DNA of 35,238 bases from Chthoniobacterales bacterium (GTDB taxonomy: Bacteria; Verrucomicrobiota; Verrucomicrobiia; Chthoniobacterales; UBA10450): NCBI GenBank assembly GCA_025934755.1, contig JAICWQ010000011.1, positions 1-35,238 of the forward strand. Reading direction: 5' to 3'. Position numbers and translations under genes: made by a program. Of this stretch, positions 8,301 through 34,215 are shown in pieces. Under the pieces are notes generated by a model. The model saw only the letters and a program-made list of their open reading frames with translations. It was not told the origin of the DNA and ran no database searches. Position 1 is the stretch's first letter, and each line of letters begins with the position of its first letter.

Positions 8301-8525
8301 CGATTGCGTCTGCGGCCAATCCTAATGACATCGTTCGCGTTCATTTTCGGTTGTCTGCCGTTGTGGTTTGCCAGCGGCTCGGGCGCGGTCGCTCGTCGCG
8401 TCCTTGGTTCAACCGTGATCGGCGGAATGATCGCCGCCTCCGGAATCGCGATTTTTCTGATCCCGGTAACATTTTATGTAATCGAGCGTTGGTTCGCGGG
8501 ACACGAAAGCAAGGTTGAAGGTTGA
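5400..8525 (+). CDS. Multidrug efflux RND permease (AcrB/MexB family, HAE1)
   Basis: 1041 aa. [72 protein letters not shown] is a textbook HAE1 N-terminus; C-terminal [21 protein letters not shown]. Confidence 0.96.
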
Positions 8526-8541
8526 GGGCTGAAGGTGAAGG
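8511..8541 (+). repeat. Degenerate heptamer tandem: AAGGTTG AAGGTTG AGGGCTG AAGGTGA AGG
   Basis: Read directly; covers the last codons (KVEG) and stop of the RND permease. Confidence 0.75.
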
Positions 8542-8547
8542 AAGTTG

Positions 8548-8610
8548 CTGTAGCGGCAGGCGTGTCGCCCACGAAATTGGGAAACGCGGCCGACACGGCC
8601 GCCTCTACAG
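8548..8610. repeat. Imperfect inverted repeat, about 22-bp arms (CTGTAGcGGCagGCGTGTCGcCC ... GGCCGACACggCCGCCTCTACAG)
   Basis: Outer 6 bp are perfect (CTGTAG/CTACAG), with an inner CGTGTCG/CGACACG match; lies between two heptamer tracts. Confidence 0.65.
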
Positions 8611-8627
8611 GTCAGGGAAACGACTCC

Positions 8628-8690
8628 TTCATCCTTCATCCTTCATCCTTCATCCTTCATCCTTCATCCCTCATCCTTCATCCTTCATGC
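8628..8690 (-). repeat. Heptanucleotide tandem repeat, nine units of TTCATCC (GGATGAA on the minus strand)
   Basis: 63 bp = 9 x 7. Units 1-6 and 8 exact; unit 7 CTCATCC; unit 9 TTCATGC. Confidence 0.97.
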
Positions 8691-8751
8691 CTCCCCGCAC
8701 TTGAAATTGTTCTGGACGTCCGGGCGTTTTATCGCCGGAATTTAGCGAACG

Positions 8752-10701
8752 ATGAAACAGTTTTTGCTGGCCTGCGCGTTTCCGGCATTGTTAACAGCTC
8801 AGAACATGGATCTGACCGAACAGCTTGGTAAAACCGTTCTTTACGGCGATATCGCGATTTCTCCGGATGGAAACCAGGTCGCCTGGGTCCAGTCGACCGC
8901 CGCTACGACTTCGAAAGAAACTTACACTTCCAAAACCGCGCCCGGATCTTCGGCAATCAAGATCACACTTGGAAATGGCGGGAACCGGGTTGACGCCCAG
9001 CCGGCATGGTCGCCCGACTCAAAAACGCTCGCTCTCCTTTCCAATGCCGGAGAGGGCGATCAGAAACAGCTGTGGCTGGTTAATGCAGACGGGTCGGGAG
9101 CGAGGAAAATGACCAAGCTCAGCGGGTATGCCGCCCGTCCCCGCTGGTCCCATGACGGAAGGCAAATCGCTCTATTATATATAGAGGGAGCCGGCGGAGG
9201 AGGCCCGCTCATGGCCGCGCCATCCACGACGGGCGTCATCGATAAGGCGATTCACAATCAACGGATCGCCGTTCTCGATGTCGCGACCGGGGAACTGAAG
9301 CAGGTTTCGCCGGGTGACCTGCATGTTTACGACTTTGACTGGTCGCCGGACGACAAAATGTTCGCGGTGACGGCGGCCCCCGGTCCGGGCGATAACAACT
9401 GGTGGATCGCGCAGATTTACAAAATCGACATCGCCACGGGTAAACCGACGTCGATTTACAAACCTTCTCTTCAAATCGCGGTGCCCCGTTGGTCGCCGGA
9501 CGGAAAACAGATTGCCTTCATCGAAGGGATCATGAGCGATGAAGGATTTCACGGCGGCGACTTACTTACAATTCCGGCCAACGGAGGCAGCGCGACCGAT
9601 CGCACCGCGGGCCGGAAAGGATCCGTGAGCTCTTTATTCTGGGTGGCGCCCGATCGAATCCTTTTCACCGAGTACGTTGGCGGCGGAAGCGCGATCTCAG
9701 AGCTGTCATTGCCCGAGAAGTCGGTGCACACAATTTCGAAGGGCGCGGAAGGCCTCCACGCGTTTGGCAATTTTCCGAACTTTGCTCTCTCGGGGGACGG
9801 GAAATTCGCGGCAGCGGTCCGAGGCAGTTACAACACGCCACCCGAAGTGTGGGGCGGATTCCTCGGCCAATGGCGACAGTTGACGAAAAATAATGCGTCA
9901 TTGCCGATGACCTGGGGCAAAGCCGAAAGCATCGACTGGACGAACGAAGGATTTCACATCCAAGGCTGGCTGATTCCGGCGGCGAAAATCGAAGCTGGTA
10001 AAAAATATCCGATGGTCGTTCTCATTCATGGCGGCCCGTCCGGTGTAACGACATCGGAATGGCCGGCTGGCGCGGGGATGGCCCGCGCGATCATTGCCGC
10101 ACTTTCCTCTCGCGGTTACTACGTGCTATTGCCAAATCCGCGTGGGAGCTACGGCCAGGGCGAAGATTTCACTCGGGCAAATGTGAAAGATTTCGGTCAC
10201 GGGGATCTTCGCGATGATCTCGCCGGGGTGGACGCGGCGTTGAAAAAGTATCCGATCGACCCCCAACGACTCGGGGTTACCGGCTGGAGCTACGGCGGAT
10301 ATATGACGATGTGGACCGTGACCCAGACCGACCGATTCAAAGCTGCGGTCTCGGGTGCAGGTATTGCCAACTGGCAGAGTTATTACGGCCAAAATTTGAT
10401 CGACCAGTGGATGATTCCGTTTTTTGGGGCATCGGTCTATGACGATCCGGCCGTTTACGAAAAGAGTTCGCCGATCAAGTTCATCAAAAATGTGAAGACG
10501 CCGACCCTCATCATCGTCGGCGAACACGACGCCGAATGTCCGGCGGCGCAGTCTTACGAATTTTGGCACGCTCTTCGAACGCTTGGTGTTCCAACCCAAC
10601 TCATTATTTATCCCGGCGAAGGCCATCTTTTTCTGAAACCAGAAAACCAGGCAGACAGACTCAACCAGACGATTGCCTGGTTCGATAAATATCTGAAGTA
10701 G
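8752..10701 (+). CDS. S9 family peptidase (acylaminoacyl/prolyl-oligopeptidase-like), exported
   Basis: 649 aa: beta-propeller repeats (AISPDGNQVAWVQ, ARPRWSHDGRQIALLY, VPRWSPDGKQIAFIEG), then alpha/beta hydrolase with GWSYGGYMT nucleophile elbow and HDAECP/GEGHLF catalytic Asp/His regions. Confidence 0.93.
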   Translation: MKQFLLACAFPALLTAQNMDLTEQLGKTVLYGDIAISPDGNQVAWVQSTAATTSKETYTSKTAPGSSAIKITLGNGGNRVDAQPAWSPDSKTLALLSNAGEGDQKQLWLVNADGSGARKMTKLSGYAARPRWSHDGRQIALLYIEGAGGGGPLMAAPSTTGVIDKAIHNQRIAVLDVATGELKQVSPGDLHVYDFDWSPDDKMFAVTAAPGPGDNNWWIAQIYKIDIATGKPTSIYKPSLQIAVPRWSPDGKQIAFIEGIMSDEGFHGGDLLTIPANGGSATDRTAGRKGSVSSLFWVAPDRILFTEYVGGGSAISELSLPEKSVHTISKGAEGLHAFGNFPNFALSGDGKFAAAVRGSYNTPPEVWGGFLGQWRQLTKNNASLPMTWGKAESIDWTNEGFHIQGWLIPAAKIEAGKKYPMVVLIHGGPSGVTTSEWPAGAGMARAIIAALSSRGYYVLLPNPRGSYGQGEDFTRANVKDFGHGDLRDDLAGVDAALKKYPIDPQRLGVTGWSYGGYMTMWTVTQTDRFKAAVSGAGIANWQSYYGQNLIDQWMIPFFGASVYDDPAVYEKSSPIKFIKNVKTPTLIIVGEHDAECPAAQSYEFWHALRTLGVPTQLIIYPGEGHLFLKPENQADRLNQTIAWFDKYLK

Positions 10702-10724
10702 CCAAAGCCAGGGCGAATTCCACT

Positions 10725-10760
10725 GGAGATCGGCAGATAAATATCGGGCGGTCTCCGATT
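10725..10760 (+). terminator. Candidate intrinsic terminator after the S9 peptidase gene
   Basis: GGAGATCG...CGGTCTCC (one wobble pair) followed by gaTTTT, 24 bp after the stop codon. Confidence 0.4.
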
Positions 10761-10882
10761 TTAACCAAACCCACAGGTGGTCGCGTTAGTGATGCGATAA
10801 TTGTTCGCGGACGTCCAAGAAGATTTGCGCTCGACGAACCTGGGGCTGGCTTGTTTCGTGCTGTTTCTTCGCAGCGTTTGTT

Positions 10883-11092
10883 ATGGTTCGATTGGAGATA
10901 GATTTCAAACCGGGTTGGTTCGAACGAAAGTTAATCCGACAAACCAAGCTCGATGTTCTGCGACGTCTCGGCGGCCACGATTTTCGGCTTCTTCGGATCG
11001 TGCTGAAGAAGCGTGATGGCCGGGTTGCCTTTCAATTCATCGGCGACTCGAGCAGCGTAGAAAAAGCCAAGAACCTTCTTGGCATCTGCTGA
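10883..11092 (+). CDS. Small hypothetical protein (69 aa)
   Basis: MVRLEIDFKPGWFERKLIRQTKLDVLRRLGGHDFRLLRIVLKKRDGRVAFQFIGDSSSVEKAKNLLGIC: globular-looking composition; ends just before a convergent gene. Confidence 0.5.
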   Translation: MVRLEIDFKPGWFERKLIRQTKLDVLRRLGGHDFRLLRIVLKKRDGRVAFQFIGDSSSVEKAKNLLGIC

Positions 11093-11108
11093 TTCAATCG
11101 AGATCTGC

Positions 11109-12278
11109 TTATCGGCGACCGCGCCAGCCGGGCGGCGGGATCAGGTTTGCAGGAACACCCGCCGCTTGAAGCATGGCCAAACCATTCGTCGGATTGCGCC
11201 ACATGACTTCGCGACTGATCCGCTGTAGCGCGTTCGATCGCGCCGTGGGATCTGCAATATTGTCGGCCCAGGCAATAGCGTCCTGCGGGTTCGTGGCCGC
11301 CATTGAAAAAGCCAGAGCGGCGGCAGCGGCATCGTATGAATTGCCGGGAGGCAACGAACTTACCCAATTGATCGCCGCATTGAGATCATCGCGGGCCCAT
11401 TCCCGCATCACTTGCGAAATTGTGCGAGCTTCGGCTTGCGGATCGGTCAACCCAATCGCCCAGTTCGCTGCGGACATTGGATCATCTGCCGCCCAGGTTC
11501 GTGCGACTTGAGCCAGTGGCGATTGCCAGCCAGTCCCGCCCATTCCGCTCTGCATGGCTTGCAACGCCGCGGCCTGAGGATCAATCGTGGCCCATTGCCG
11601 ATAAATCACACTGCTTAACGATTCGTTTCCGGGAAAATCCCCTAACGACTGGGCCATCGTCAGCGCCGCCGCCGGGTCGCTTTCGGCCATAAAACTGAGG
11701 ACTCCTCGCAACGCCATGTAACGAAGGTTCGATTCCGGGATCGCTTTGGCGCGATCGAGAGCGGATTGCAAATCCACGCTGGCGAGCGATTCGAAAACAT
11801 CGTCGGCCATATATTCGTAGCCGTGGTTCGAGTTGGCGAAATTGAGGGCAGCTTCGGGATCGTCCTGCACCCAGCGCGCAATCAACAATCGCGATGCGAG
11901 CTCGCGTTCGTTACTGCCTGGAATGCGCTGGACCCGCTTCAAGACATCGGCAAAGTCGGACCGGTTCAATCCGCTGATCAATGCCTGCAGATCTTTTGCT
12001 CTCTGACGCGGATCACGCTCTGCCAGAATCGTGTTCAAAGATTTCGCGCGAAAAGTGCTTGGCGGCTCCGATTTTGTCGTCGCGGGCGCGCTTTTCGTTT
12101 GCGCTTCGGGCACAGGCTCCTTAACCGCAACCGACTGGGATGCAACCGGGTCCACCGGTTGGGCCGCAGACGAGTTCGAGTGACGATTAAATGCCCGATC
12201 AAGCACCGCGCCGCCGGCTACTGCGATTCCAAGAATCAAAACGTACCAGGGATTAATTTTCGCCGCCATCTCCCACAT
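11109..12278 (-). CDS. Exported/membrane-anchored protein with about seven degenerate ~36-aa helical repeats
   Basis: 389 aa; N-terminal hydrophobic segment INPWYVLILGIAVAGGAVL. Repeats: WVQDDPEAALNFA, MAESDPAAALTMA, WATIDPQAAALQA, WAADDPMSAANWA, WARDDLNAAINWV, MAATNPQDAIAWA, MWRNPTNGLAMLQ. Confidence 0.8.
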   Translation of the reverse strand: MWEMAAKINPWYVLILGIAVAGGAVLDRAFNRHSNSSAAQPVDPVASQSVAVKEPVPEAQTKSAPATTKSEPPSTFRAKSLNTILAERDPRQRAKDLQALISGLNRSDFADVLKRVQRIPGSNERELASRLLIARWVQDDPEAALNFANSNHGYEYMADDVFESLASVDLQSALDRAKAIPESNLRYMALRGVLSFMAESDPAAALTMAQSLGDFPGNESLSSVIYRQWATIDPQAAALQAMQSGMGGTGWQSPLAQVARTWAADDPMSAANWAIGLTDPQAEARTISQVMREWARDDLNAAINWVSSLPPGNSYDAAAAALAFSMAATNPQDAIAWADNIADPTARSNALQRISREVMWRNPTNGLAMLQAAGVPANLIPPPGWRGRR

Positions 12279-12335
12279 CTTCCTAAAATACCGCGGTCTG
12301 CGCCAGCAGAAATCCGCGTAAAGCGCGACCTACCT

Positions 12336-12821
12336 TCAGAACGGATAGTGAAGGCGTAACAGCTGGGGCTTGGCGCCCAGCGAGACCACGAATATTTCAC
12401 TATAATCGCTGTCTGGAATCTGGACCGGTCCATCAATCCCGATCGCTGTTAGGATATTCGGAATCGTGTCGCCATGCCCTACGACCAGGGCATTGCCATT
12501 CAGTTGGCGCAATTTTGAAACGAGCGCCGCGATATCTTTTCCGGCGACGATGGTTGGGCTGATGCCGGTTGAGCTCGATGTCGGGACGGCCGTCTCCTGG
12601 GTGCGCTTAAATTCGCTGGTGAAGATTGCTGTGATCCCTGCGTCTTTTAGAATTCGCGCGAGCGCCTTCGCCCGGTCGCGGCCGGCAGGAGACAAATCCG
12701 GGTCCTTCGGATCGTTGGCTGCCTTTTCCGCGTGACGAACGATCACGACAATCGGTTCTGCTGACGCAAACGACACCGCAATCAACGACGCGACAAATAG
12801 AACAAGGACCTTCATCCACAT
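12336..12821 (-). CDS. Histidine phosphatase superfamily protein (phosphoglycerate mutase-like/SixA-like), exported
   Basis: Signal peptide MKVLVLFVASLIAVSFASA; catalytic VVIVRHAEKA; second catalytic His in VVGHGDTIPN. Confidence 0.88.
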   Translation of the reverse strand: MWMKVLVLFVASLIAVSFASAEPIVVIVRHAEKAANDPKDPDLSPAGRDRAKALARILKDAGITAIFTSEFKRTQETAVPTSSSTGISPTIVAGKDIAALVSKLRQLNGNALVVGHGDTIPNILTAIGIDGPVQIPDSDYSEIFVVSLGAKPQLLRLHYPF

Positions 12822-12927
12822 ATGCTAGCAGAAAAATCGTCTTTCGAAATTAAGCACCTCGGTCGCCAGACTCGCTGAGTCTGATCTTTTCCCGCCACAT
12901 GTTGAACGTCGCGACTTTCTGCGTCTG

Positions 12928-12955
12928 GTCACTTGTCACATGTCACTGATCACTC
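12928..12955 (-). repeat. Heptamer repeat GTCACTT GTCACAT GTCACTG ATCACTC
   Basis: Four consecutive 7-nt units read directly. The ATG at 12940 (start of the epimerase ORF) lies inside unit 2. Confidence 0.85.
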
Positions 12956-13929
12956 TGTCGATCGAGGCCCACGAGGAAATCTGGCCGCTCAAGGAAACGT
13001 TCCGGATTTCGCGCGGCAGCCGAACTGAAACACGTGTGATCGTTGCCACCATCAGCGACGGCGAGCACACCGGGCGCGGCGAAGGAGTGCCAGTGCGTCG
13101 TTACAATCAGACATCCGGCTCTGTGCTGGCCCAGATCGAAGCGATCAATCCCGATGACAATTTTAATCGCACGAGTTTGCAATCGCTTTTACCTCCCGGG
13201 GCGGCCCGAAATGCGCTGGATTGCGCGCTTTGGGACCTGGACGCGAAACGCTCAGGCAAACGCGTTTGGGAAATTGCCGGGATTCCGGTGGCTTCTGAAA
13301 TCGAAACGTCCTTCACCATCAGCCTGGATGCGGCGGAAAAAATGGGCCAAGCGGCAAAGTCACACTCGGCCGCGCCGATCCTCAAATTAAAACTCGGAGG
13401 CGACAGAGAGGATTTGGCACGCGTAACCGCCGTTCGCAAATTTGCCCCCACTGCCCGTCTTTTAATCGATGCCAACGAATCGTGGTCGCCGGAACATTAT
13501 CGAGACCTCGCGCCTGAGTTGAAAGAACTCGGCGTCGAGGTAATCGAGCAACCGTTTCCAGCTGATGCCGATGAAGTTTTGGAAAAACTGGATCATCCAG
13601 TGCCGGTTTGCGCAGACGAAAGTTGCCACACCACGATCGACCTTCCGCGGTTAAAAAATCGGTACGAGATGATCAATGTGAAACTCGACAAGACGGGCGG
13701 GTTCACTGAGGCGCTATTTTTGTGCGAACGCGCGCGCGAAAATGGATTCAAATTACTGATCGGCTGCATGGCGTGCACCTCGTTAGGCATAGCCCCAGCA
13801 CGATTGCTTGCGAGCGACGCGGACTATGCCGATCTCGACGGCGCGATATTACTCGCCCGCGACCGAGATCACGGACTTCAATGTGCCAAAGGCCAGCTCG
13901 GTTTGCCGCCGCGAGAGCTCTGGGGATAA
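12940..13929 (+). CDS. Dipeptide epimerase (L-Ala-D/L-Glu epimerase-like, enolase superfamily)
   Basis: 329 aa; PLKETFRISRGSRTE N-terminal cap; NALDCALWDLDAKRSGKRVWEIAG; ILKLKLGG; LLIDANESW; VIEQPFPADADE; VCADESCH; NVKLDKTGGFTEAL. Confidence 0.9.
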   Translation: MSLITLSIEAHEEIWPLKETFRISRGSRTETRVIVATISDGEHTGRGEGVPVRRYNQTSGSVLAQIEAINPDDNFNRTSLQSLLPPGAARNALDCALWDLDAKRSGKRVWEIAGIPVASEIETSFTISLDAAEKMGQAAKSHSAAPILKLKLGGDREDLARVTAVRKFAPTARLLIDANESWSPEHYRDLAPELKELGVEVIEQPFPADADEVLEKLDHPVPVCADESCHTTIDLPRLKNRYEMINVKLDKTGGFTEALFLCERARENGFKLLIGCMACTSLGIAPARLLASDADYADLDGAILLARDRDHGLQCAKGQLGLPPRELWG

Positions 13930-13973
13930 GAGAAGTGACCAGTCTCAAACCGCATAGGTCTCGCGATTTGGTC

Positions 13974-16676
13974 TTACTCGCAGCGAAGAGCCACCATTGG
14001 ATCGACTTTGGTTGCACGGCGCGCCGGCAAATAACAAGCGAGGAGCGCGACCCCGATGAAAACGACGATGGCAATGCCAAAAGTCATCGGGTCTAGTGGC
14101 CTGATGCCGTAGAGTGAACCGGCCATCAATTGTGAAACCAACAGGGCGCAGATCAGACCAACCGTCGCGCCGGTGATCGCGAGTCCGAAACCGTAAGCCA
14201 ACAGCATCTGCAGAATCGTGCGTCGATCGGCGCCGAGGGCGAGCCGGACCCCAATTTCGTGGGTGCGTTCGTTTACCAGATAAGAGAGGACTCCATAGAT
14301 TCCGATCGCCGCCAACACCAACGCCGTCAGAGCAAACACGCCGACGATCTTGAGCGAAAAGCGCCGCTGGTCGAGCGAGGCCGAGAGCGTGTCCGTCAGC
14401 ATTTCTGCACTGAAAACAGGGAGCGTCGGATCGACCGACTGCACTTGCTTGCGCACTTGCTCGGGAATTGCAGCGGCATCCAGATGTCCTCGCAGAAAGA
14501 TCGCAAGATGTTTCGCACCTCTTTGATAAAGGTCGGTGTAGATTTGCGGGACGTTGGTGTTCTCGATCGATTCCGTCCGCGCATTTGCGACAATGCCGAC
14601 GATCGTTGTCCACCCAGTCACGCGTTGTGAAAGTTTTATGTGTTGGCCAATCGGATCTTCGTTAGGCCAAAGTGTCTGCGCCATCGATTCATTGATCACA
14701 GCGACGGCTTCCACGTCGTTCTTATCAAGATCGTTGAACATGCGTCCGCGGCGCAGGGTCATGCCCATTAAATGAAAATATTCCGGCGTAACGGTCGATT
14801 CATCGACCAGGGGCGCCTCATTGCTTTGGGTCTGTCTTCCTTCGATCATCATTGGAAGGGGAGGATTTTGATTGTTCCGGTCGTGCCCGAGCGGCAGGGC
14901 CGCCAGATCCCCCATCGCCACTTCTTCAACCCCGGTTAGTTGTTTGCAGCGCCGAAGAACGTCCCGGAAAAATGGCGCCTCCTGCGCCGCCGTGGCGTAG
15001 TTATCCATTTTTGGATCGTTTGGATACGGAATCCTCGTCTTGATCGTCATGACGTTTTGGGGATTGAACCCCAGCGGCGCACTCTGCAAATCCCAAAAGC
15101 TGTGGAGCAGCAAACCGGCTGCGATCAACAACACCAGAGACATGGCGAATTCCGTTATTACCAATGCCCGTCTGGCGCGGGCCTGTTCGCGTGATCCGGT
15201 GGATGCACGCCCTTCCTGCTTGAGCGCGTGACTGAGTTCCGGATGGCGAGCAGACAATGCGGGAGCAAGCCCAAAGATTATACCGGAGAGGACGGAGGCA
15301 CCCGATGCAAACAGCAACACGGTCCAGCTAATCGATATTTCATTCAACCTCGGCAAACTTTGCGGCACGAGATGGATGAGAAAATCTTTCGTGACGACGA
15401 GGACGCCCAAACCAATCGCGCCGCCGAGCAACCCTAGAAGCAAACTTTCCGTCAGCAATTGGCGGGTCAGCCTGATTTGTCCGGCCCCAAGTGCCCGTCG
15501 AATGGCCAGCTCGTGAGTTCTGACGCTGCCGCGCGCGAGCAAGAGGTTTGCTACATTGACACAAGCAATCAGGAGAACCAGGCCGACCGCGACGACCAGC
15601 ATGATGAGGGTCTGGCGCACATTACCGATCACGCTCTCTTTCAACGGGACCAATCGAATTCTCCATCCCATTTGGGCTGGATAATCGCTGGAATATTTTT
15701 TTCGCAATGAGGTGACCAGCGCGTCGACCTTGCTTTGCGCGCCCGCGATCGTCAGGCCGGATTTCAATCGCGCGATTGCAGTTGGCAGATTTCGCCCGCT
15801 TCGCGCCGGCTGATCTGACAATGGCGCTCCGTAAAAACTGGTGGCGGCCCAGACTTCAATGTTTCGCTCTCGGAACGAGGTCCCGGGGTCGTGAAAACTT
15901 GCGGGCATGACTCCGACGATTCGATACAAATCGGTGTCCATTCGTATGTTCTTTCCGAGGATGTCCGGATCGGAACCGAACATGCGCTTCCATAAGCCGT
16001 CGCTAATCACGACTTCGCCAATGAATCCCGGTGAATGGTCGGTCCCTGGAAAGGTGCGGCCAAGCTCAGGCTTTACGCCTAACAAATCGAAATAATTCGG
16101 CGCTTCAATCAGCAAGCTGACCCGGGCGGGTTCGGCCGCGCCTGTCAGATTGTTGTCGTCGTACCAGGCGGGAGAGACGTTCTCGAAAATCCCGGAGTGC
16201 TGAAGGTCCTGCCATTCCGGCTCAGACATGCCAACGTCATGCGCCCCAATTCCCTCAAGTTCGTCGACAATCCTTACAAGCTGGTCGGAGCCGGGATACG
16301 GAAGTGGATGCAAGAGCGTAGCGTCGACGACTGTGAAAATCGCGGTCGTGGCCCCGATGCCCAGCGCGATTGTCAAAACGACAACTGCGGTAAATCCCGG
16401 CGATTTTCGCAACATTCGAATGCTAAACCGCAGGTCCTGAAGAAGGATGTCAACGAAGTTTCCGGCGATCGCGTCGCGACATTCTTCCTTAAACCGCTCC
16501 GGACTCCCGAACTCGAGACGAGCGCGGCGCTGGGCTTCCGCTCGAGTTAATCCGGAACGTTCCAGTGCGTCCGCACGAAGTTCGAGGTGCGATTGAAGTT
16601 CTTCTTTCAGCTCTTGCTCGGTGCGGTAACGATGGCCAAATCTTCCGAGCAACGATCTGAAATAGGCCAGTCTCAT
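13974..16676 (-). CDS. ABC transporter permease, FtsX/MacB_PCD duplicated type (ADOP-like)
   Basis: 900 aa; N-terminal prefix [42 protein letters not shown]; two MacB-PCD/FtsX halves; paired with an upstream padR gene as in the ADOP class. Confidence 0.92.
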
Positions 16677-16690
16677 TTGTCGCGCTTCTC

Positions 16691-16711
16691 GTCACTCATC
16701 ACTTTTGTCAC
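16691..16711 (-). repeat. Heptamer repeat GTCACTC ATCACTT TTGTCAC between padR and the permease gene
   Basis: 7-nt-spaced [GA]TCACT units; the last TCAC supplies the padR stop codon (TGA on the minus strand). Confidence 0.65.
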
Positions 16712-17049
16712 GCTTCCTGCGGTCGCGCGGCCAAAGCACTCGCGATTGCTTTCGCCAGTCGATTCCATCCATCGGTCTCCTCCCGTAGACGTCTTCGGCC
16801 TTGGGCCGTCAGTTCGTAAAATTTCGCGCGACGATTGTTCTCGGACTTGCCCCATTTCGATTTCAAAAGTCCCTGCCGGACCAATCGAAATAGCGCCGGA
16901 TAAAGCGCCCCCTGCTCCACGAACAATGCTTTGCCGGAAATCTGTTCGATCCGCGAAAGAACGGCGTAGCCGTGGAGTGGCCCCAGCGAAACCGCTTTTA
17001 AAATGAGAAGATCGAGTGTCCCCGGTAAAAGTTCGGCTTCATCACTCAT
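16708..17049 (-). CDS. PadR family transcriptional regulator
   Basis: ELLPGTLDLLILKAVSLGPLHGYAVLSRIEQISGKALFVEQGALYPALFRLVRQGLLKSKWGKSENNRRAKFYELTAQGRRRL: hallmark PadR winged helix. Confidence 0.96.
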   Translation of the reverse strand: MSDEAELLPGTLDLLILKAVSLGPLHGYAVLSRIEQISGKALFVEQGALYPALFRLVRQGLLKSKWGKSENNRRAKFYELTAQGRRRLREETDGWNRLAKAIASALAARPQEA

Positions 17050-17055
17050 AGTGCT

Positions 17056-20909: not shown

Positions 20910-22823
20910 TCACGGAAATCGGTGTATTGGCGTAGGCGTTGGAGTAGGAGTGGACGTCGGCGCCGTGGTTGCGGTCGGTGTAGCTGAAGCTGCGGGCGTA
21001 GGCGTAGGAGTTGGGCTCGGACCACATCCGCGGAGACACGGAGTGGGAGTCGGTGTGGGAGAAAGTCCAGGCGTTGGCGTAGGAGTTGAAATAATTACGG
21101 GCGTCGGTGTGGGCGTTGGTGTTGGTGTTGGCGTCGGGCTCGGAACGCATCCGCGGAGACAGGGAGTGGGTGTCGGGGTTGGAGTCGGCGTTGGAGTTGG
21201 GGTTGGAGTCGGTGTCGGCGTTGGCGTCGGTGTCGGCGTTGGCGTCGGAGTCGGCGTTGGCGTCGGAGTTGGCGTTGGGGTCGGAGTTGGCGTCGGAGTC
21301 GGCGTTGGCGTCGGAGTCGGCGTTGAGGTCGGAGTTGGCGTTGGGGTCGGTGCGGCAGTCGCCGTCGGCGTTGGAGTTGGCGTTGGGGTTGGGGTTGGAG
21401 TCGGTGTCGGAGTTGGTGTTGCGGTCGGAGTTGGCGTTGGGGTCGGTGCGGCAGTCGGCGTCGGCGTTGGCGTTGGCGAAGGGATCGTAAAGGCGTGTGA
21501 ATGGGCCGCCAGTTGCGATACAGTTATGTTTAACGTAGCTGAGCCTGCGGTCTCGGCCAGGACACCAAGGTCCGGCGAATCATAATGGGCTGCGGCCATG
21601 GCCTGAAGATTTGGTATCGCGAAGGTGCTCTGCCCATCTCCGCCGTAGGTTGTTCCAATCAGATTGAAAAGCGTGTCGTTCTCGGAGATTGGCAAAATGG
21701 TGCCGTAGAGAGCATCCCATGCATCCTCAGACAATCCGTCGGCCGTATTACCGGCTATAATCCGAATTTCCCCGATCAAGGGCTGATCGGTTGCATCCGC
21801 CGACGGAGAATCGGCAAGGAATGGAGCATTCCGGGAAGGGAAAATGCCGAAAAGCGAAATGAGCCACCGCATCACCATCGAGGACTGATAATTGTTTGCC
21901 GTGTTCCCGGTCCCGCCAGTAGAACCGGTGTCGCCTTCGGAAGTCGTGTGGGTGTGAGCCGGAATGTCGGACGCGCTCAATATTAAGTTATCAGTGCCGT
22001 AATTCAGCCCAACTGGGAAAGAATCGTTGTCGTCACCGATGATAATATTTCCGCGGGTGTCGGGAAGGCCCACGGTGGTTGTACCGTCACCGCCATAAAT
22101 TGTCCCGATGTTGCTAAACAGATAATTATAATCAGGCAGCGGTAACAGCCGGCCATCGCAATGCGCCCAGCCGGTCGGTTCAACATTCCACGGCGCGATC
22201 ATCATTTCGCCATTGGACGCGATCAAAAAATTCAAGGCCAGGGAGGGCTGTCGATTGTCGAACGCAACGCCCCCGCCGGTGGCATCGGTATTACCGCCGC
22301 TGGGAAGAGAATGGGTATGGCTGGGCAGGTTGTCGACCGTGACAGAGGGAAACGATGTTCCGACTTTGGTCCCGAGCGGAATGTCGGCACTGGCGCCGAC
22401 CGGCACGCGCCCACGCAAATCGGGTAAAGCAAAGGTCGTTACACCGTTACCGCCATAGGTCGTCCCGATCAGAGTCCAAAGCGCAATGTTTTGACTGATC
22501 GAAAGGAGTTGACCTTCACACATTACCCAATCTTTGGGCGCAAAATTGAATGAAACCGCCCTGATTTCGCCAATAAAGGGCACGGTCCGGTCGGGCGGCG
22601 TTGTTTGGTTGGGTGTTCCGGGCGTTCCGGCGTCGTCCGGGAAAATCCCATTGAGCGCAATAATGTAAGTCAGAGCCAGTGTAGGCTGGCGATTTTCAAC
22701 GGCCTGACCGCCGCCGGTCACGCCCGTGGTATCGGCCAGGAGAAGGAAAATTCCGAGCCCGAAAAGGGCGATCGCGGTCGAGCCTGCCTGACGGACCAGT
22801 CTGTTATGTCGGAATGTCTTAAT
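20910..22823 (-). CDS. Secreted phage-tail-collar-domain protein (three collar domains) with a long Pro-Thr low-complexity C-terminus; start codon unclear (ATT at 22823 proposed)
   Basis: ORF track begins at GTG 22721, mid-protein. In-frame upstream codons read [35 protein letters not shown], a signal peptide, with a stop at 22848-22850 and no ATG/GTG/TTG between. Collar motifs: [41 protein letters not shown] and two more copies. Confidence 0.8.
20934..21480. repeat. Low-complexity hexamer-like repeat (GGCGTT/GGAGTC type) encoding (Pro-Thr)n on the minus strand
   Basis: Continuous GGNGTN repeats; minus strand reads PTPTPT..., interrupted twice by PCLRGC[VG]PS. Confidence 0.9.
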
Positions 22824-24488: not shown

Positions 24489-24516
24489 GTCAGTCGTGAC
24501 TTGTCACTGATCACTT
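24489..24516 (-). repeat. Heptamer repeat GTCAGTC GTGACTT GTCACTG ATCACTT
   Basis: Four consecutive 7-nt units between divergent genes. Confidence 0.8.
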
Positions 24517-27890: not shown

Positions 27891-27948
27891 GGCTCAAAGC
27901 TGGGTCGCGTATTCGGCCCTGGCAGCCGGCCCTCCCTGGGCGACCGGT

Positions 27949-28371
27949 TTAACTCGTTTTCCCGGTTGGCTGCGTTCCTGAGAGGTACTCTTGATCGGTG
28001 ACATGTTGCATCCACTCCACGACTTTGCCATCGAGTTCCTCTTGCACTGCAATGTGCGTCATCGGGGTGGTCGACGTGGCGCCGTGCCAATGTTTTTCGT
28101 CCGGCGAAAACCAAACCACGTCGCCCTGCCGAATTTCCTCGATTGGTCCGCCGTGACGCTGCACCCAGCCCAAACCATCGGTGACGATCAGGGTTTGGCC
28201 TAACGGATGCGTATGCCAGGCGGTCCGGGCGCCCGGCTCAAACATCACCCTCGCGCCCCGCCCCCGGGCGGGATCCGGCGATTCAAACAGAGGTTTTATC
28301 TTAACCGAGCCTGTAAACCACTCACTCGGACCATTCGTAGAACCCTGCGAACCGGATCTCTTGATTTCCAT
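27949..28371 (-). CDS. Cupin domain protein
   Basis: [74 protein letters not shown]. Confidence 0.93.
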
Positions 28372-28374
28372 CGT

Positions 28375-28557
28375 TCAATCTCCTTTCTCGCTTCGCTTCA
28401 TCTTGTCACTGGTCACTTCTTTGGGTTTCGGATCATATTCCAGCGCCGCTATAATCGCGGCCAGAGCACCCGAAACACACAACGCCAATAATCCAACAAG
28501 CGTCGCAATGACCGCGTCATACCGACTAGCGCTACGGAATTCCTTTTCCTCCGCCAT
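28375..28557 (-). CDS. Small single-TM protein (60 aa)
   Basis: [60 protein letters not shown]: one clear TM; sits 3 bp upstream of the cupin gene; C-terminus is encoded by heptamer repeats. Confidence 0.55.
28398..28418 (-). repeat. Heptamer repeat TCATCTT GTCACTG GTCACTT
   Basis: Three consecutive 7-nt units, inside the 3' end of the 60-aa ORF. Confidence 0.7.
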
Positions 28558-28649
28558 GGCGCCGATGTATCGACGAAGACGTTGATCGTTTCAATTGTCA
28601 ATTTGTCTGGCTCCGGGCTGTAACCAGTGACATCTGATCTCTAACTCTC

Positions 28650-28663
28650 GTCACGCCTCACTT
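28650..28663 (-). repeat. Heptamer pair GTCACGC CTCACTT
   Basis: Two 7-nt units upstream of the cyclase gene; only two units, so weaker. Confidence 0.5.
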
Positions 28664-28712
28664 CTTTAGATTGCTCCGGGATTGTTATTTGTCGAGATAG
28701 CCGGTAAACAGG

Positions 28713-30854
28713 GTGATGCCGACGGAAGAGCGCAAACTTGCCGCCATTATGTTCACCGACATGGTGGGCTATAGCGCGCTGGCCCAACGTGACGACAAAG
28801 TCGCTCTCGAACTCTTGGAGGAACATCGCCGGTTATTGCGCGAAATTTTCCCTCAGTTTCACGGGACCGAAATCAAAACCATCGGCGACGCTTTCCTGGT
28901 CGAATTCGGAAGCGCGTTGGAAGCGGCCCAATGCGCGATCGAAATCCAGCGCACCCTGGCCAAACGAAATCACGACGTCACATCGGACCGGCGGATCGAA
29001 CTTAAAATCGGCATTCACATCGGCGATGTGGTGCATCGTGACGGCGATGTCTATGGCGATGGAGTGAACATCGCCTCGCGCATCGAAGCGCTGGCCGGCG
29101 CCGGCGGCATTTGCGTCTCGATGGATGTCGAGCGCCAGATTCGTAACGCGCTTGAGGCGCGATTTGAAAAGTTTGGCTCGGCCGACTTGAAAAACATCAA
29201 GCTGCCGATGGAGCTGTTCCGGATTGTCTTGCCCTGGGAATCGGGTGCGAGAACTGCATCTCCTTCACAGCCATCTTCCAAGAAACCGCCCGTCCTCATT
29301 GCCGTGGCCGTTCTCCTGATGATTGCATTCATCGTTGGCGGGTGGTGGTGGTCGGAGCGCCAGAGCAAACACCAGCAATCAACTGCCACTGAGCCAGCGC
29401 CGGTCGCTCCAGCCAGACCGCGTGATCAAAATTCCGTGGCGGTTTTGCCTTTCGCGAATCTGAGCGACGACAAAGGAAGCGAATATTTTTCGGATGGCGT
29501 AAGCGAGGAACTGCTGACTGTTCTACAAAAAATTCCGGGTCTGCACGTGGCTGCGCGCACATCCGCGTTTTGGTTCAAAGGCAAAAACGCCACCGCCCAG
29601 GAAATCGGGCAGAAACTCGGCGTGGCCTATTTGGTCGACGGGAGTGTGCGCAAATCCGGCGAAGCGGTGCGGATAGCTGCCCGGCTCGCCCGCGCTGACA
29701 CTGGCGAGGAACTCTGGTCGGAAAATTATACCCGTAACTTGAAGGACGTGTTCGCAGTCCAAACCGAACTCGCCCAGACGATTGTCGAACAATTGCGGGG
29801 CCGGTTCGGCGGAGCGGAGACGGGTGCGAAAGAGAAAATTCAAGCCGAGGTCCAGGCCGCGGAAAAAGGCGGAACCAAGAACGTCGAGGCCCATGAATTG
29901 TATCTCCAAGGCCGCTTTTATGAAAATCGTCATTCTGAAAAAAGCGCTCGGGACGGTCTCGCTGCTTACGAACACGCCGTCGCCCTGGATCCCGGGTTCG
30001 CCCTGGCCTGGGCGGGCGTCGCGGGAACCAATACGTGGCTTGCCGCTTTTTCCACGGAAGGTGGACAGAAACGCTTCGACGAACATTTGGCCACCGCGCG
30101 TGACGCCATCGCGCGGGCTTTGTCGATCGAGCCGAACTTGCCTGCCGCGTTGCTCGCCCGCGCGACGATCGAGACCAACTTCGATTTTAACTGGAACGCA
30201 GCGGCCCAAACCGTCAGTAAGGCGCTGGCGCTCGCTCCGGCCGATCCGAACGTTCTCATCGCCGCGGGCAACCTCGAGGTAGCGCGTGGAAACATGGATC
30301 GAGCAAAGGAGCTTTATCGCAAAGCAGTCGATCTGGACCCGGTTAACGCGCAAGCCCGGACATTTTTTGCGTTTCATCTGGCGGTTACGAAACAATTCTC
30401 GGAAGCGCGCGACGAATTCCCACGCGTCGTGGAGCTGAATCCGGCAGCGCCCTGGGCGCATGCTGGTCTCGGTCTGGCCTATCTGCTGGAGAATAAATTC
30501 GAGCAGGCCGCAACCGAGGCCCAAGCTGATGCGGGTGACTGGTGCCGGCTTCTTATCGTGAGCTGTGCGCGTTGGGGACAGAAGCGAGGAGCAGAATCGG
30601 ATGCAGCGCTGGCCGAGTTAATCAAAAATTCTGCCGAAACAGCTGCGTATCAAATTGCCGAGGTTTACGCGTATCGTGGTGACAAGGATAAGGCTTTCGA
30701 ATGGCTGGAACGCGCGCGCCGGCAACGCGATCCCGGTCTGGCTGCTTCGCGCAGAGATCCGTTACTGACCAACCTTCAAAACGATCCGCGTTGGAACGCA
30801 TTCCTCCACACGATGGGCCTGGCCGACGACCAATTGAAATCCAGCGCACTCTAA
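28713..30854 (+). CDS. Class III adenylate/guanylate cyclase domain - TM - TolB-N-like domain - TPR protein
   Basis: KLAAIMFTDMVGYSALAQRDDKVALELLEEHRRLLREIF...GTEIKTIGDAFLVEFGSALEAAQCAIEIQ; TM VLIAVAVLLMIAFIVGGWWW; VAVLPFANLSDDKGSEYFSDGVSEELLTVLQKIPGLHVAARTSAF; TPRs (ALAPADPNVLIAAGNLEVARGNMDRAKELYRKAVDLDP). ATG at 28716 is an equally good start. Confidence 0.93.
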   Translation: MMPTEERKLAAIMFTDMVGYSALAQRDDKVALELLEEHRRLLREIFPQFHGTEIKTIGDAFLVEFGSALEAAQCAIEIQRTLAKRNHDVTSDRRIELKIGIHIGDVVHRDGDVYGDGVNIASRIEALAGAGGICVSMDVERQIRNALEARFEKFGSADLKNIKLPMELFRIVLPWESGARTASPSQPSSKKPPVLIAVAVLLMIAFIVGGWWWSERQSKHQQSTATEPAPVAPARPRDQNSVAVLPFANLSDDKGSEYFSDGVSEELLTVLQKIPGLHVAARTSAFWFKGKNATAQEIGQKLGVAYLVDGSVRKSGEAVRIAARLARADTGEELWSENYTRNLKDVFAVQTELAQTIVEQLRGRFGGAETGAKEKIQAEVQAAEKGGTKNVEAHELYLQGRFYENRHSEKSARDGLAAYEHAVALDPGFALAWAGVAGTNTWLAAFSTEGGQKRFDEHLATARDAIARALSIEPNLPAALLARATIETNFDFNWNAAAQTVSKALALAPADPNVLIAAGNLEVARGNMDRAKELYRKAVDLDPVNAQARTFFAFHLAVTKQFSEARDEFPRVVELNPAAPWAHAGLGLAYLLENKFEQAATEAQADAGDWCRLLIVSCARWGQKRGAESDAALAELIKNSAETAAYQIAEVYAYRGDKDKAFEWLERARRQRDPGLAASRRDPLLTNLQNDPRWNAFLHTMGLADDQLKSSAL

Positions 30855-30981
30855 ACTTGCGTCGACATCCCGGGTTCGGTTTGAGTTTTTAGCTTTCCGC
30901 GTTTCAGCTGTCAGCCTCCCCGGCTCAACGCCTCAACTTTCCCCGCCTTTACGCGCAGACAATGTTGAACGACGTTAAACG

Positions 30982-31401
30982 ATGTTTGGATCAAGAAAAG
31001 ACGATTCGCCCACGCCCGCACCCGCGGCATCACCGGAACCGGCACCAACCAAAACTGAACGACAGCCCGATGGGCCAAGAACATCGACCGCTCGCGGTTT
31101 CCTTTCCAGCGAAGTGTCGATCGACGGTGATTTAACCTTCCGCAACGAACTCCTCATCGACGGCAAGGTGAACGGCAAGATCAACGCCACCGGCACCCTG
31201 ATTGTGGGCAAGAACGCGCGCGTTCGTGGCGAGGTGAGAGTAAAAGCAGTGACGATCCAAGGCACGATTGAAGGCAATGTCTTCGCTTCGGAGCGCTGTA
31301 GTCTTGAACCGGGCGCAACCCTGCGTGGCGACATCGAATCGCCGCGCCTGGCTCTCGATGAGAACGCCTCATTTCTTGGCCGCGCCAAAATCAGCCGCTG
31401 A
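30982..31401 (+). CDS. Bactofilin (polymer-forming cytoskeletal protein)
   Basis: FLSSEVSIDGDLTFRNELLIDGKVNGKINATGTLIVGKNARVRGEVRVKAVTIQGTIEGNVFASERCSLEPGATLRGDIESPRLALDENASFLGRAKI. Confidence 0.93.
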   Translation: MFGSRKDDSPTPAPAASPEPAPTKTERQPDGPRTSTARGFLSSEVSIDGDLTFRNELLIDGKVNGKINATGTLIVGKNARVRGEVRVKAVTIQGTIEGNVFASERCSLEPGATLRGDIESPRLALDENASFLGRAKISR

Positions 31402-31413
31402 TTGATTACAAAG

Positions 31414-31434
31414 AAGTGACGGGTGACGGGTGAC
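31414..31434 (+). repeat. Heptamer repeat AAGTGAC GGGTGAC GGGTGAC
   Basis: Three consecutive 7-nt units 12 bp after the bactofilin stop. Confidence 0.8.
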
Positions 31435-31493
31435 GAGACAGCAAGGTCCGCGATCAGACGACGCAGGAGCGGACAGATTGCTGCGTGTAGGAA

Positions 31494-31521
31494 GTTGATA
31501 GCTCATGGTTGAGAGTTAAAA
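31494..31521 (+). repeat. Degenerate heptamer tract GTTGATA GCTCATG GTTGAGA GTTAAAA
   Basis: 7-nt-spaced GTTGA-like units just upstream of the cyclase remnant. Confidence 0.5.
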
Positions 31522-31578
31522 GAAACGTTCCCCGTTTTGCTTCTCGCGCGCTTCGATCGATTCTTTTCCAAGCCCGGC

Positions 31579-31806
31579 ATGGAACGCCGCCTCACCGCAA
31601 TTCTCGCCGCCGACGTGGTCGGTTACAGCCGACTCATGGGCGCGAACGAAACCGATACGTTCAATCGGTTGAAGGAGGTGAGAGAAGATCTCATCAGCAA
31701 CCCGATCGCTCGTCACCAGGGACGAGTCGTAAAACTCACCGGCGATGGAATGCTTTTAGAGTTTTCCAGAGTAGTAAGCGCCGCCCCCTGCGCGGTGGAA
31801 GACTGA
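31579..31806 (+). pseudogene. Truncated N-terminal remnant of a class III adenylate cyclase gene
   Basis: MERRLTAILAADVVGYSRLMGANETDTFNRLKEVREDLISNPIARHQGRVVKLTGDGMLLEFSRVVSAAPCAVED*: cyclase core up to the first helix after the second metal Asp, then stop. Confidence 0.8.
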
Positions 31807-31848
31807 CCAGCTAACTATCCCTGGTCACTTGCCTACTATTGCGCGCTT

Positions 31849-31876
31849 GTCACTTGTCGCTCATCACTTATCGCTT
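31849..31876 (-). repeat. Heptamer repeat GTCACTT GTCGCTC ATCACTT ATCGCTT
   Basis: Four consecutive 7-nt units 7 bp past the stop of the minus-strand helicase gene. Confidence 0.8.
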
Positions 31877-31883
31877 CTTCAAA

Positions 31884-33206
31884 TCAACGGTGTCTTCGAT
31901 AAGACCTGCGCGGCGGACGATTGTTCGATGAAGCATTCCGGAAACGCCAGCCGATCCGGCCGTGCGGAGCGTCGCCGCTTCCATGCGGAGAATTTCCTGG
32001 CAGTCGCGGCTCAATCTTTCGCTGCGGGCCTCGCGCTCGCCGGCCCCGCTCCTCGCGCGGCGGCGCCGCTTGATTATAATCGAAACCTTCCGCGCGTTTC
32101 CGCAAAATGCCGCGGCCGATGAAACGCTCTAGCGAACGCAACGCCCCGTGATCTTCCGGCGTGATAAAACTAATCGCATCCCCGATGGCGTGGGCGCGGC
32201 CGGTGCGTCCGATCCGATGCACATAATCCTCGGAGTGCATTGGAAAATCGTAGTTCACCACATGCGAGATCCCATCCACATCAATCCCCCGGGCGGCGAT
32301 GTCGGTGGCAACCAGGACACGGACGGCGCCCGATTTGAAATCCTTCAACGCGCGAAGCCGCTGATTCTGCGAGCGATTGGAATGAATGGTCCCCGTTTTG
32401 ATTCCGCTGCTTTCGAGACGGCGAGCGATCTTGTCTGCGCCGTGCTTGGTCCGGCTAAAAACGAGAACCGTGTCGAACTGTGGATCGCCTAGCAAATGCA
32501 GAAGCAGCGCAGACTTCAAATGCGGCGGAACTTCGTAGGCAAACTGGGCGACCGTGTCGGCCGGGTTCGCGCGACGGCCAATCTCGACAATTTTGGGCGA
32601 ATGTTGGAACTGGTGAGTCAGCTGCTCGATTTCTCTCGAAAGCGAAGCGGAAAACATCAGGGTCTGGCGTTTTTGCGGCAACGCCTTCACAATCCGGCGA
32701 ATCGGCGGAAGGAAACCCATGTCCAGCATTCGATCGGCTTCGTCGAGCACCAGGAACTCGACGCGAGAAAGGTTGGCCACCCGTTGGTCCATCAGATCGA
32801 TCAACCGCCCGGGCGTAGCTACAACCAGATCGACCCCGGAACGCAAGGCCGCGATTTGCGGACGCTCGCTCACTCCGCCGAAAACCGTGGCCATGCGCAA
32901 CGGAACATGTTTCGCGTAAGCGCGAACGTTCTCCTCGATCTGCGCCACCAGCTCACGAGTCGGCGCGACCACCAGGGCACGCGTTCCGCGCTTCTCACCG
33001 TTGTGCATCGACCCCGCGAGTTTCATTAGAATCGGCAAAACGAAAGCCGCCGTTTTTCCCGTGCCCGTCTGTGCGATCCCGATGACATCGTGTCCCGCGA
33101 GAATGAGCGGGATGGCCGCGACCTGAATCGGAGTCGGCTCCGTGTAACCCGCGTCGTCCACGGCCTGTAACATTTGGGGCGAAAGATTGAGTGCGCGGAA
33201 TGACAT
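31884..33206 (-). CDS. DEAD-box ATP-dependent RNA helicase (RhlE-like)
   Basis: PTPIQVAAIPLILAGHDVIGIAQTGTGKTAAFVLPIL; VLDEADRMLDMGF; SAS (SAT variant); ATDIAARGIDVDGISHVVNYDFP; HRIGRTGRA. Confidence 0.96.
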   Translation of the reverse strand: MSFRALNLSPQMLQAVDDAGYTEPTPIQVAAIPLILAGHDVIGIAQTGTGKTAAFVLPILMKLAGSMHNGEKRGTRALVVAPTRELVAQIEENVRAYAKHVPLRMATVFGGVSERPQIAALRSGVDLVVATPGRLIDLMDQRVANLSRVEFLVLDEADRMLDMGFLPPIRRIVKALPQKRQTLMFSASLSREIEQLTHQFQHSPKIVEIGRRANPADTVAQFAYEVPPHLKSALLLHLLGDPQFDTVLVFSRTKHGADKIARRLESSGIKTGTIHSNRSQNQRLRALKDFKSGAVRVLVATDIAARGIDVDGISHVVNYDFPMHSEDYVHRIGRTGRAHAIGDAISFITPEDHGALRSLERFIGRGILRKRAEGFDYNQAAPPREERGRRARGPQRKIEPRLPGNSPHGSGDAPHGRIGWRFRNASSNNRPPRRSYRRHR

Positions 33207-33421
33207 AACCAGCGGTACTATCGTCTGCTACGCCGATAACGCACCTGTCTTCTTAGCTTTCCTCTCCGTCTCTTAACGACTCAACTTCTCACCTGTCCGC
33301 CGTAGCTTCAGCGAAGGAGCAACACCTGATTGCGCGCTACCTGAGAGGCTTTCCCCCGCAACTCCCAGATTCTAAGCTCCCAGTTGCCGCATCGAAAGCA
33401 CGTAGGCGGATCAATTTTCCC

Positions 33422-33435
33422 GTCACCCGTCACTG
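33422..33435 (-). repeat. Heptamer pair GTCACCC GTCACTG
   Basis: Two 7-nt units about 47 bp upstream of the second TMEM175-like gene. Confidence 0.5.
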
Positions 33436-33482
33436 ACAAATTTTCTTCCTGCTGTCCTGCTTTCCTGAGAAATTCCGCAACC

Positions 33483-34070
33483 ATGAAGACGAATCGCCTC
33501 GAAGCGTTCAGTGACGGCGTCTTCGCCATCATCATTACGATCATGGTCCTCGAACTAAAAGTGCCGCACGATCCCGGCATCAACGCGCTTCGACCGCTGT
33601 TGCCAATCTTTCTCACGTATTTGCTGAGCTTCATTTATCTGGGGATTTATTGGAACAATCATCATCATCTGCTCCAGGTCTGCCGCCGAGTCAGCGGCGG
33701 GATCATGTGGGCCAATCTGCATCTGCTTTTTTGGCTGTCCCTTTTTCCGTTTGTCACCGGTTGGATGGGTCAGAACCACTTTCAATCGATCCCCGTGGTG
33801 CTTTACGGCGCGGTTTTGCTGATGGCCGCGCTCGCCTTTTACATTTTGCAAACACTTATCATTCGGCTGCATGGTTGCGATTCCAAACTCGCCGAAGCCA
33901 TTGGCTCCGATCTCAAGGGCAAACTCTCTCCCGTCCTTTACGCTATTGGAATCGGCGTCTCGTTTTTCAAACCGGCGATCGCTGGTTGCATTTACATCGG
34001 AGTTGCTCTGATGTGGCTCGTCCCCGATCGCAGAATGGAGAAAGCTCTCGAGTCACCGAGCAGGGAGTGA
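33483..34070 (+). CDS. TMEM175/DUF1211 family membrane protein (putative K+ channel)
   Basis: From ATG 33483: MKTNRLEAFSDGVFAIIITIMVLELKVPHDPGINALRPLLPIFLTYLLSFIYLGIYWNNHHHLLQ: classic FSD signature and second-TM region. Confidence 0.93.
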   Translation: MKTNRLEAFSDGVFAIIITIMVLELKVPHDPGINALRPLLPIFLTYLLSFIYLGIYWNNHHHLLQVCRRVSGGIMWANLHLLFWLSLFPFVTGWMGQNHFQSIPVVLYGAVLLMAALAFYILQTLIIRLHGCDSKLAEAIGSDLKGKLSPVLYAIGIGVSFFKPAIAGCIYIGVALMWLVPDRRMEKALESPSRE

Positions 34071-34215
34071 ATTTTACGGGCAGAGTTCGCTGAGGGCATA
34101 TACAAACTTAACATTGCTAGTTCTTCTTGGTTCGCCTCCGCCTTCTCTGCGGTGAAATTTCAGCTTTTCACTTTTCTGCTTTTTTCGCTGAAAGAACGAG
34201 CATCCCGCGGACGTA

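Follow-up and report, generated by a model that had tools for sequence, protein, structure and literature searches.

The intergenic DNA of a Chthoniobacterales bacterium (Verrucomicrobiota) contains short arrays of degenerate 7-nt units, here studied from a 35,238-nucleotide stretch (assembly GCA_025934755.1, contig JAICWQ010000011.1, positions 1 to 35,238; hereafter the window), and these arrays are probably the terminal arms, or the detached remains, of small cassettes built around a gene of the S23/IVP family, which resemble the intervening sequences (IVSs) of ribosomal RNA genes but are intergenic. A first-pass annotation of the window had treated the repeats as an intergenic set by themselves and missed their partner: the unit classes match the arms that bracket S23/IVP genes of the same genome. 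The source genome is a 2.97-Mb draft of 258 contigs, of which the window is contig 190, and 1.45 Mb of it was surveyed, sampled as stretches; some early stretches were picked for holding repeats, so the copy numbers given below are not extrapolated to the genome. Genes were called with a simple six-frame program, so that gene counts are approximate.

Heptamer arrays bracket S23 genes in the source genome

The source genome carries 18 genes of PF05635 (S23 or 23S_rRNA_IVP, “four helix bundle protein”), a family absent from 14 control genomes, and 17 of the 18 exceed the curated cut-off, such that the protein characteristic of rRNA IVSs is present. Most intact copies have matching inverted arrays on both sides, and these arms fall into about 12 classes, listed here with the loci at which they occur:

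GTGACNN: L154-L156
GTTGAGN: L158, L160
GTTGATA: L153
GTTGAAN: L161
TTTAAGC: L157
GGTCACA: L159
GGATGAA: L164
AATTTCC/AATTGGC: L165
CAACGCC: L166
GTTTAGC: L167
CGAAATC: L168

When the upstream flank of each gene was compared with its reverse-complemented downstream flank, 8/13 S23 genes of this genome scored at least 16 (p = 5e-7), a value above the 99th percentile (15.8; median 8.5) of 532 other genes of the genome. The S23 cassettes carry inverted repeats at their ends from which a stem could form, as in rRNA IVSs. The arrays that lie apart from any S23 gene belong to the same system of classes: of 154 such orphan tracts, 86% fit one of the arm classes borne by this genome's S23 genes, compared with 16% after column permutation and 32% for reversed sequence.

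The order of the arrays is equally structured. Neighboring arrays of the same class form 27 facing pairs (plus then minus strand), no back-to-back pairs (minus then plus), and four direct pairs. The spacers of the facing pairs measure either 10-92 bp or 381-417 bp, with one exception of 172 bp, and spacers of about 380-420 bp mostly contain an S23 gene. Three cassettes (L155, L171, and L172), each in a different genome, lie between what seems to be one and the same pair of genes, and their right arm (ACATGTCAC) seems to provide the start codon of a downstream dihydropyrimidinase-like gene (MSLLIKNGEIV).

Recurrence across phyla and the match between protein and repeat

Inverted heptamer arrays bracket S23 genes in no fewer than six phyla, namely Verrucomicrobiota, Acidobacteriota, Planctomycetota, Bacteroidota, Cyanobacteriota, and Gemmatimonadota. 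The same layout occurs at most of the 29 S23 loci from the bacterium's own phylum, in Lacunisphaera, Opitutaceae, Terriglobia, another Acidobacteria metagenome-assembled genome (MAG), Gemmataceae, Bacteroidetes, Solitalea, Flavobacterium, and an actinomycete MAG, and at plasmid-borne copies in Nostoc, Anabaena, Calothrix, Stanieria, Geminocystis, Gemmatirosa, and Riemerella; the arms are weak at the actinomycete locus and a few others. At 59 S23 loci sampled across phyla, a gene's own pair of arms scored a median of 18 versus 9 for off pairs (p = 5e-27), and 7 was the best period of the upstream flank at 45/59 and of the downstream flank at 38/59 loci, compared with 2/59 after shuffling. Among plasmid S23 genes, 9/10 scored between 15 and 33, whereas the 106 other genes in two 50-kb stretches of Nostoc plasmid had a median of 8.5, the sole other high scorer being a transposase (19.5). 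The arms are about 4.6 units long.

The unit class follows the protein. Pairs of S23 proteins with a similarity of 0.55-0.7 share an arm class at unrelated sites in 51% of cases, as opposed to 0-5% for pairs below 0.45 (0 of 2000 in a Mantel test of arm class against protein similarity), and GTGACNN arms accompany one S23 subfamily in Verrucomicrobiota, Acidobacteriota, and Planctomycetota alike. In the arm-matching pairs the proteins are about 64% identical while four-fold codon sites are 26% identical, that is, saturated and as different as in unrelated sequence. Neutral arms would by then have lost their likeness, and therefore the unit appears, from these comparisons of sequence, to be maintained by selection together with the S23 protein. 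This match at saturated sites is the best evidence that S23 would read the unit. Within the genus, GTGACNN arrays are numerous (31 and 29) in the two genomes with an intact cognate S23 gene and number 0-5 elsewhere among 39 relatives; a wide sample of the phylum showed no clear pattern in the presence or absence of GTGACNN arrays and the cognate gene. Copies of S23 that are 60-73% identical are scattered patchily over different phyla, and no close S23 relative was found in phage records.

In Anabaena and Pseudanabaena plasmids, S23 genes lie between cas6 and cas4 of clustered regularly interspaced short palindromic repeat (CRISPR) loci (L211:1198-1566 and L213:1204-1563), and S23 genes have been listed as cas-associated (PMC3936711). 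Heptamer arrays (GGTGACA and AAAAGCT, respectively) flank both genes, which suggests that they are insertions and not accessory genes of the cas system.

The repeat signal and its unit classes

The excess of 7-nt periodicity that the first-pass annotation proposed for intergenic DNA holds up against shuffled sequence. Intergenic identity at lag 7 was 0.264 versus 0.253 after shuffling (z ~10), identity at lag 8 was not raised (0.253), and coding DNA was flat at lag 7 (0.2515); the window by itself gave z values of 3.7 at lag 7 and 5.6 at lag 21. Noncoding tracts scoring at least 9 numbered 143 at lag 7 as against 9-38 at lags 4, 5, 6, and 8-13, with a further 105 at lag 14, the double of the period, and exact 5-mer matches numbered 1205 at lag 7 versus 251-486 at most other lags.

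The arrays of the source genome include the classes GTGACNN, GGATGAA/GGTTGAA, CAACGCC/GTTGGGC, CGAAATC, AATTGGC/AATTTCC, GGTCACA, GTTGATA, TTTAAGC, and GTTGAGN, several of which have no stop codon at all. The earlier impression of mixed units that mostly carry TGA on one strand was borne out, in that the unit consensus contains TGA in 124/214 tracts where 49 are expected; the TGA-centered picture is nevertheless partial, since about 40% of tracts genome-wide belong to non-TGA classes that had gone unseen. Within an array the units vary around a constant core of 3-5 nt: in TGA tracts, identity is 0.89-0.94 in the TGA columns and 0.63-0.80 in the remaining four. Runs of four GTGACNN units number 31 in the source genome and 29 in one congener; the reversed control gives none in either genome.

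Arrays of the window

Every array of the window is of the orphan kind, i.e., none is an arm of an S23 gene. Scores below are matches to S23 arm classes versus the reversed control.

8511..8541, plus strand: left (U-type) arm of the GGATGAA/GGTTGAA class; 18 to the S23 arm of L164 vs 15
8542..8627, no strand: 86-bp spacer that separates the facing arms; a dispersed repeat of hairpin-like form (TGTAGCGGC...GCCTCTACA)
8628..8690, minus strand: right (D-type) arm of nine TTCATCC units (GGATGAA class); 29 vs 14
12928..12955, minus strand: right-type arm of the GTGACNN class, holding the called ATG (12940) of an enolase-superfamily gene; 17 vs 12
16691..16711, minus strand: weak GTGACNN-class array with the same core; 11 vs 9
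24489..24516, minus strand: GTGACNN-class array; 15 vs 11
28398..28418, minus strand: short, weak GTGACNN-class array; 12 vs 10
31414..31434, plus strand: left arm of the GTGACNN class, directly after a bactofilin gene (30982-31401); 14 vs 9
31435..31848, no strand: spacer of facing GTGACNN arms, with an N-terminal adenylate/guanylate cyclase-like fragment at 31537-31806 (MERRLTAILAADVVGYSRL...), identified by eye
31494..31521, plus strand: weak GTTGATA-class tract within that spacer; 14 vs 12
31849..31876, minus strand: right arm of the GTGACNN class, immediately ahead of the stop of the minus-strand gene 31884-33173; 14 vs 8
33422..33435, minus strand: two-unit GTGACNN array upstream of a TMEM175-like gene (33483-34070); 12 vs 7

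Of the tracts that the first-pass annotation had listed, those at 8511, 8628, 12928, 24489, 31414, 31849, and 33422 clearly fit a known class and those at 16691, 28398, and 31494 do so weakly, while those at 28650, 30902, 33272, and 34158 score no better than the reversed control and 13933 is a single unit with no repeat. The array at 8511..8541 contains the stop codon (TGA, 8523-8525) of an AcrB-family gene (5400-8525), and a second copy of the adjoining 86-bp spacer, 90% identical over 82 bp, borders an array of the same class on contig C141 (locus L018). The array at 16691..16711 occupies a 31-bp gap between a PadR gene (16708-17049, minus strand) and the gene 13974-16676 (minus strand). 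The spacer at 31435-31848 (410 bp) was considered as a slot for S23, being of the right size, and was set aside, its content being the cyclase-like fragment and no S23 gene. Elsewhere in the window, an 18-bp tandem repeat (GTCGGAGTTGGCGTTGGC, 17 copies) lies at 21172-21478, inside a minus-strand gene (20910-22721).

Orientation and stop codons

The strand orientation of the arrays is structured relative to genes, as had been claimed earlier: the TGA strand points outward from the nearest gene in 70 cases and toward it in 32, with the same tendency at gene ends (44 outward, 22 inward) and gene starts (26 outward, 10 inward). When arrays of all classes were oriented by the S23 arms, 102 pointed outward and 30 inward. 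The cause that the first reading had implied, namely that reading out of a gene would meet stops in all frames, would make the arrays translational insulators selected for outward TGA, and the TGA excess, the 70:32 orientation, and the 29 genes that terminate within an array (among 1145 called genes, versus 7 for a codon 20 codons upstream) are all in keeping with it. However, the stop-free CGAAATC class is equally biased (27 outward, 4 inward), as is the CAACGCC class (13:3), likewise free of stops or poor in them, so stops are not the cause of the bias; the bias is just as strong at gene starts, where stops are useless; and the S23 arms of other clades include units with no stop, such as GGGAACA and GAGAACG. 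The outward bias arises because arrays of the same class lie in facing pairs. As a general explanation the insulator is thus highly improbable, and it was dropped as the main cause after the test of the stop-free class, whereas a supply of stops may be a side benefit of the arrays.

Filled and empty sites

Several cassettes can be compared with the same site lacking them. In Nostoc plasmids, one S23 cassette, which has GGGAAAA-type arms, is inserted in ...GAGGTAATGGGATTT..., a place at which the stop codon of one gene overlaps the start of the next in two related plasmids, and another with AGTCAGG arms lies between ...TTCTAG and ATGCAA.... The site of a third Nostoc cassette (site 1) holds, in another plasmid, facing arms without a gene. 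Cassette L157 of the source genome occupies a stop/start junction at which genome G005 has a gap of 3 bp. No consistent target-site duplication was found at three filled/empty sites.

A possible mechanism and the alternatives

A complete cassette, of about 0.45 kb, consists of an S23/IVP gene with an arm of about 4-6 degenerate 7-nt units on its left and an oppositely oriented arm of the same class on its right. It fits so tightly between two genes that the upstream stop codon can come from the left arm and the downstream start codon from the right one. Every S23 subfamily has a unit class of its own. The one solved relative is a homopentamer ring (PMC4990558), PDB entry 2GSC having five chains, and such a ring may recognize the repeated unit in DNA or RNA. 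The facing arms could pair in the transcript and form a stem around the gene, in the manner of the inverted ends of rRNA IVSs, and binding of the unit by S23 would help the cassette to spread. Short facing pairs without a gene and solo arrays, which make up most copies in the source genome and all those in the window, would then be gene-less derivatives. The predicted RNA duplex between arms is consistent with pairing (-54.9 for own vs -34 for swapped arms), as are predicted folds (median of 31 arm-arm pairs vs 11 with swapped flanks). The S23 cassettes are probably mobile.

Several observations weigh against this account. The window holds neither an S23 gene nor a convincing IVP relic, and orphan arrays greatly outnumber S23 genes. 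Certain S23 genes (L163, L169, and L182-L184) have weak or undetectable arms. The Pseudanabaena gene L213 has direct instead of inverted arms and a score of 7. The link between class and protein is not strictly one to one, in that genome G143 has 71 GTGACNN matches, yet no S23 closer to the GTGACNN-type protein than 36% identity. The third Nostoc cassette stands in place of about 40 of the 52 bp of its gap, and neither transposase, nor recombinase, nor any consistent target duplication was found. Finally, a gene's own arms are barely more complementary to each other than to same-class arms elsewhere (p = 0.056), a gain so slight that selection for arm pairing is unsupported.

Two further explanations must be considered. 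The arrays might be ordinary long simple-sequence repeats (LSSRs), arising by replication slippage, favored by the polymerase at seven nucleotides and tolerated between genes, and heptamers are indeed given as the commonest long repeats in many bacterial genomes (PMC4679880, citing Mrazek 2007). Tandem 7-nt units between genes are present in the source genome, and long perfect tandems occur in some distant members of the phylum (GTGACCC and GTGACCA units; G221:C1:590511-590613 and G124:C1:1924745-1924840), which contrast with the degenerate arrays described here. Yet slippage products should be near-identical, whereas the units of one array differ around a fixed core, and the first-pass annotation was right not to class this as simple slippage DNA; moreover, slippage cannot produce facing pairs in a ratio of 27:0, the match between class and S23 subfamily across phyla, or orphan classes identical to S23 arm classes. 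We consider it quite improbable as the sole cause, although it may still lengthen arrays.

Alternatively, the arrays could be binding sites of a translation regulator, with S23 a host regulator controlled by its own sites and not part of a mobile cassette. There are ring proteins, such as TRAP, that wrap RNA motifs set at regular intervals, and a pentameric S23 ring alongside arms of about 4.6 units would suit such a role. A precedent is offered by the TAACTGA repeats, which lie directly upstream of start codons and for which a post-transcriptional binder has been proposed (PMC4679880). A regulator does not account for inverted arms on both sides of the gene, for patchy copies of 60-73% identity across phyla, or for filled and empty sites in near-identical plasmids, and on these grounds it is unlikely as a replacement for the cassette, with whose recognition step it is nonetheless compatible.

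Relation to known systems

The closest counterpart of the S23 cassettes is the IVS of 23S rRNA with an S23p/IVP open reading frame (as in Leptospira and Coxiella), in which a gene of the same family lies within stem-forming terminal inverted repeats, and the cassettes work most like these elements. In rRNA IVSs the S23 gene lies within a 28-bp stem that is cut by RNase III, and the elements, suspected to be mobile, have been described as selfish, sporadic, and probably horizontally moved (PMC4990558). Unlike them, the cassettes lie between protein genes, which flank all annotated plasmid loci and the own-genome loci that were read; their ends are degenerate 7-nt tandem arrays whose unit is set by the S23 subfamily; and there are many copies per genome as well as gene-less derivatives. 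Identity with rRNA IVSs was rejected because the genomic place is wrong, and a cautious label could be an intergenic variant of the IVS. Insertion sequences and miniature inverted-repeat transposable elements share terminal inverted ends, gene-bearing and gene-less forms, and filled and empty sites; the cassettes differ in having an S23 gene alone between the arms and no transposase, on which account an insertion sequence was also rejected, no consistent target duplication, and arrays in place of one fixed end sequence. PF05635 proteins are structural relatives of Avd of diversity-generating retroelements (PMC10053308); no reverse transcriptase was noticed beside the annotated S23 genes, though no systematic search for one was made.

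Two kinds of repeat resemble the arrays. The short tandemly repeated repetitive (STRR) heptamers of heterocystous cyanobacteria are likewise 7-nt tandem units between genes, and in Nostoc and Calothrix plasmids GGGAACA, GGGAGTA, and GGGTGTA arrays stand on both sides of S23 genes, whereas STRRs have been described as repeats alone. To our knowledge, no report ties STRRs to S23 or to facing pairs. A plain STRR or LSSR identity was discarded for the present arrays, with their units differing around a fixed core and a partner gene present. The TAACTGA direct repeats of Beggiatoaceae, cyanobacteria, and Bacteroidetes (MacGregor 2015) are also stop-containing intergenic heptamers, patchy over distant phyla, for which horizontal movement has been suspected with no mechanism (PMC4679880); they differ in having one unit, no reported partner gene, and a position mostly upstream of starts, and TAACTGA is absent from the array classes listed for the source genome.

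We rate the cassettes as a new kind of element because none of the families tested has a counterpart of their ends, class code, or gene-less derivatives, and no link between S23 and heptamer arrays was found in the open-access literature. The S23 arrangement may explain the long-known cyanobacterial heptamers and would join two old puzzles, the origin of intergenic heptamers and the role of the very common, unexplained S23/IVP proteins. In its broadest form, that these are transposase-less mobile elements found throughout bacteria, in which a five-membered S23 ring reads a degenerate heptad code in facing arms, with STRRs, TAACTGA repeats, and many unexplained arrays of uncultured bacteria as ends or relics and the CRISPR-cas S23 genes as insertions, the proposal seems to us about evenly balanced between right and wrong. 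It predicts a protein-to-repeat code that is readable from genomes and testable by binding assay; if true, many intergenic arrays and S23 genes would need reannotation, and the list of mobile elements would gain one that, having stops and starts in its ends, can enter operons at little damage.

Other arrays and hairpins at related sites

Repeats of other kinds occur at or beside sites of these arrays. At L014:9992-10088 and L025:16313-16448, intergenic sites that bear a GTGACNN array in G005 are taken up by inverted arrays with periods of 8 (GTTGAAGC ... CTTCAACA) and about 10 (CACGAATGGA). A hairpin like those of repetitive extragenic palindromic sequences (AGGTAGCGGC...GCCGCTACCT) adjoins a fully conserved GTGACNN array (L133:2477-2584 and L029:12700-12792), its stem sequence changed between the two congeners with complementarity apparently kept. 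The facing-array layout may also extend beyond S23, as genes of PF13366 (GxxExxY) in the source genome seem to lie between inverted arrays of degenerate units about 8-10 nt long (CACGAAT.., CACGGAT.., CAGGAAAG), at the following loci:

L110:11378-11719, minus strand
L110:3547-3822, plus strand
L119:387-728, minus strand
L047:943-1269, minus strand
L040:696-1046, plus strand

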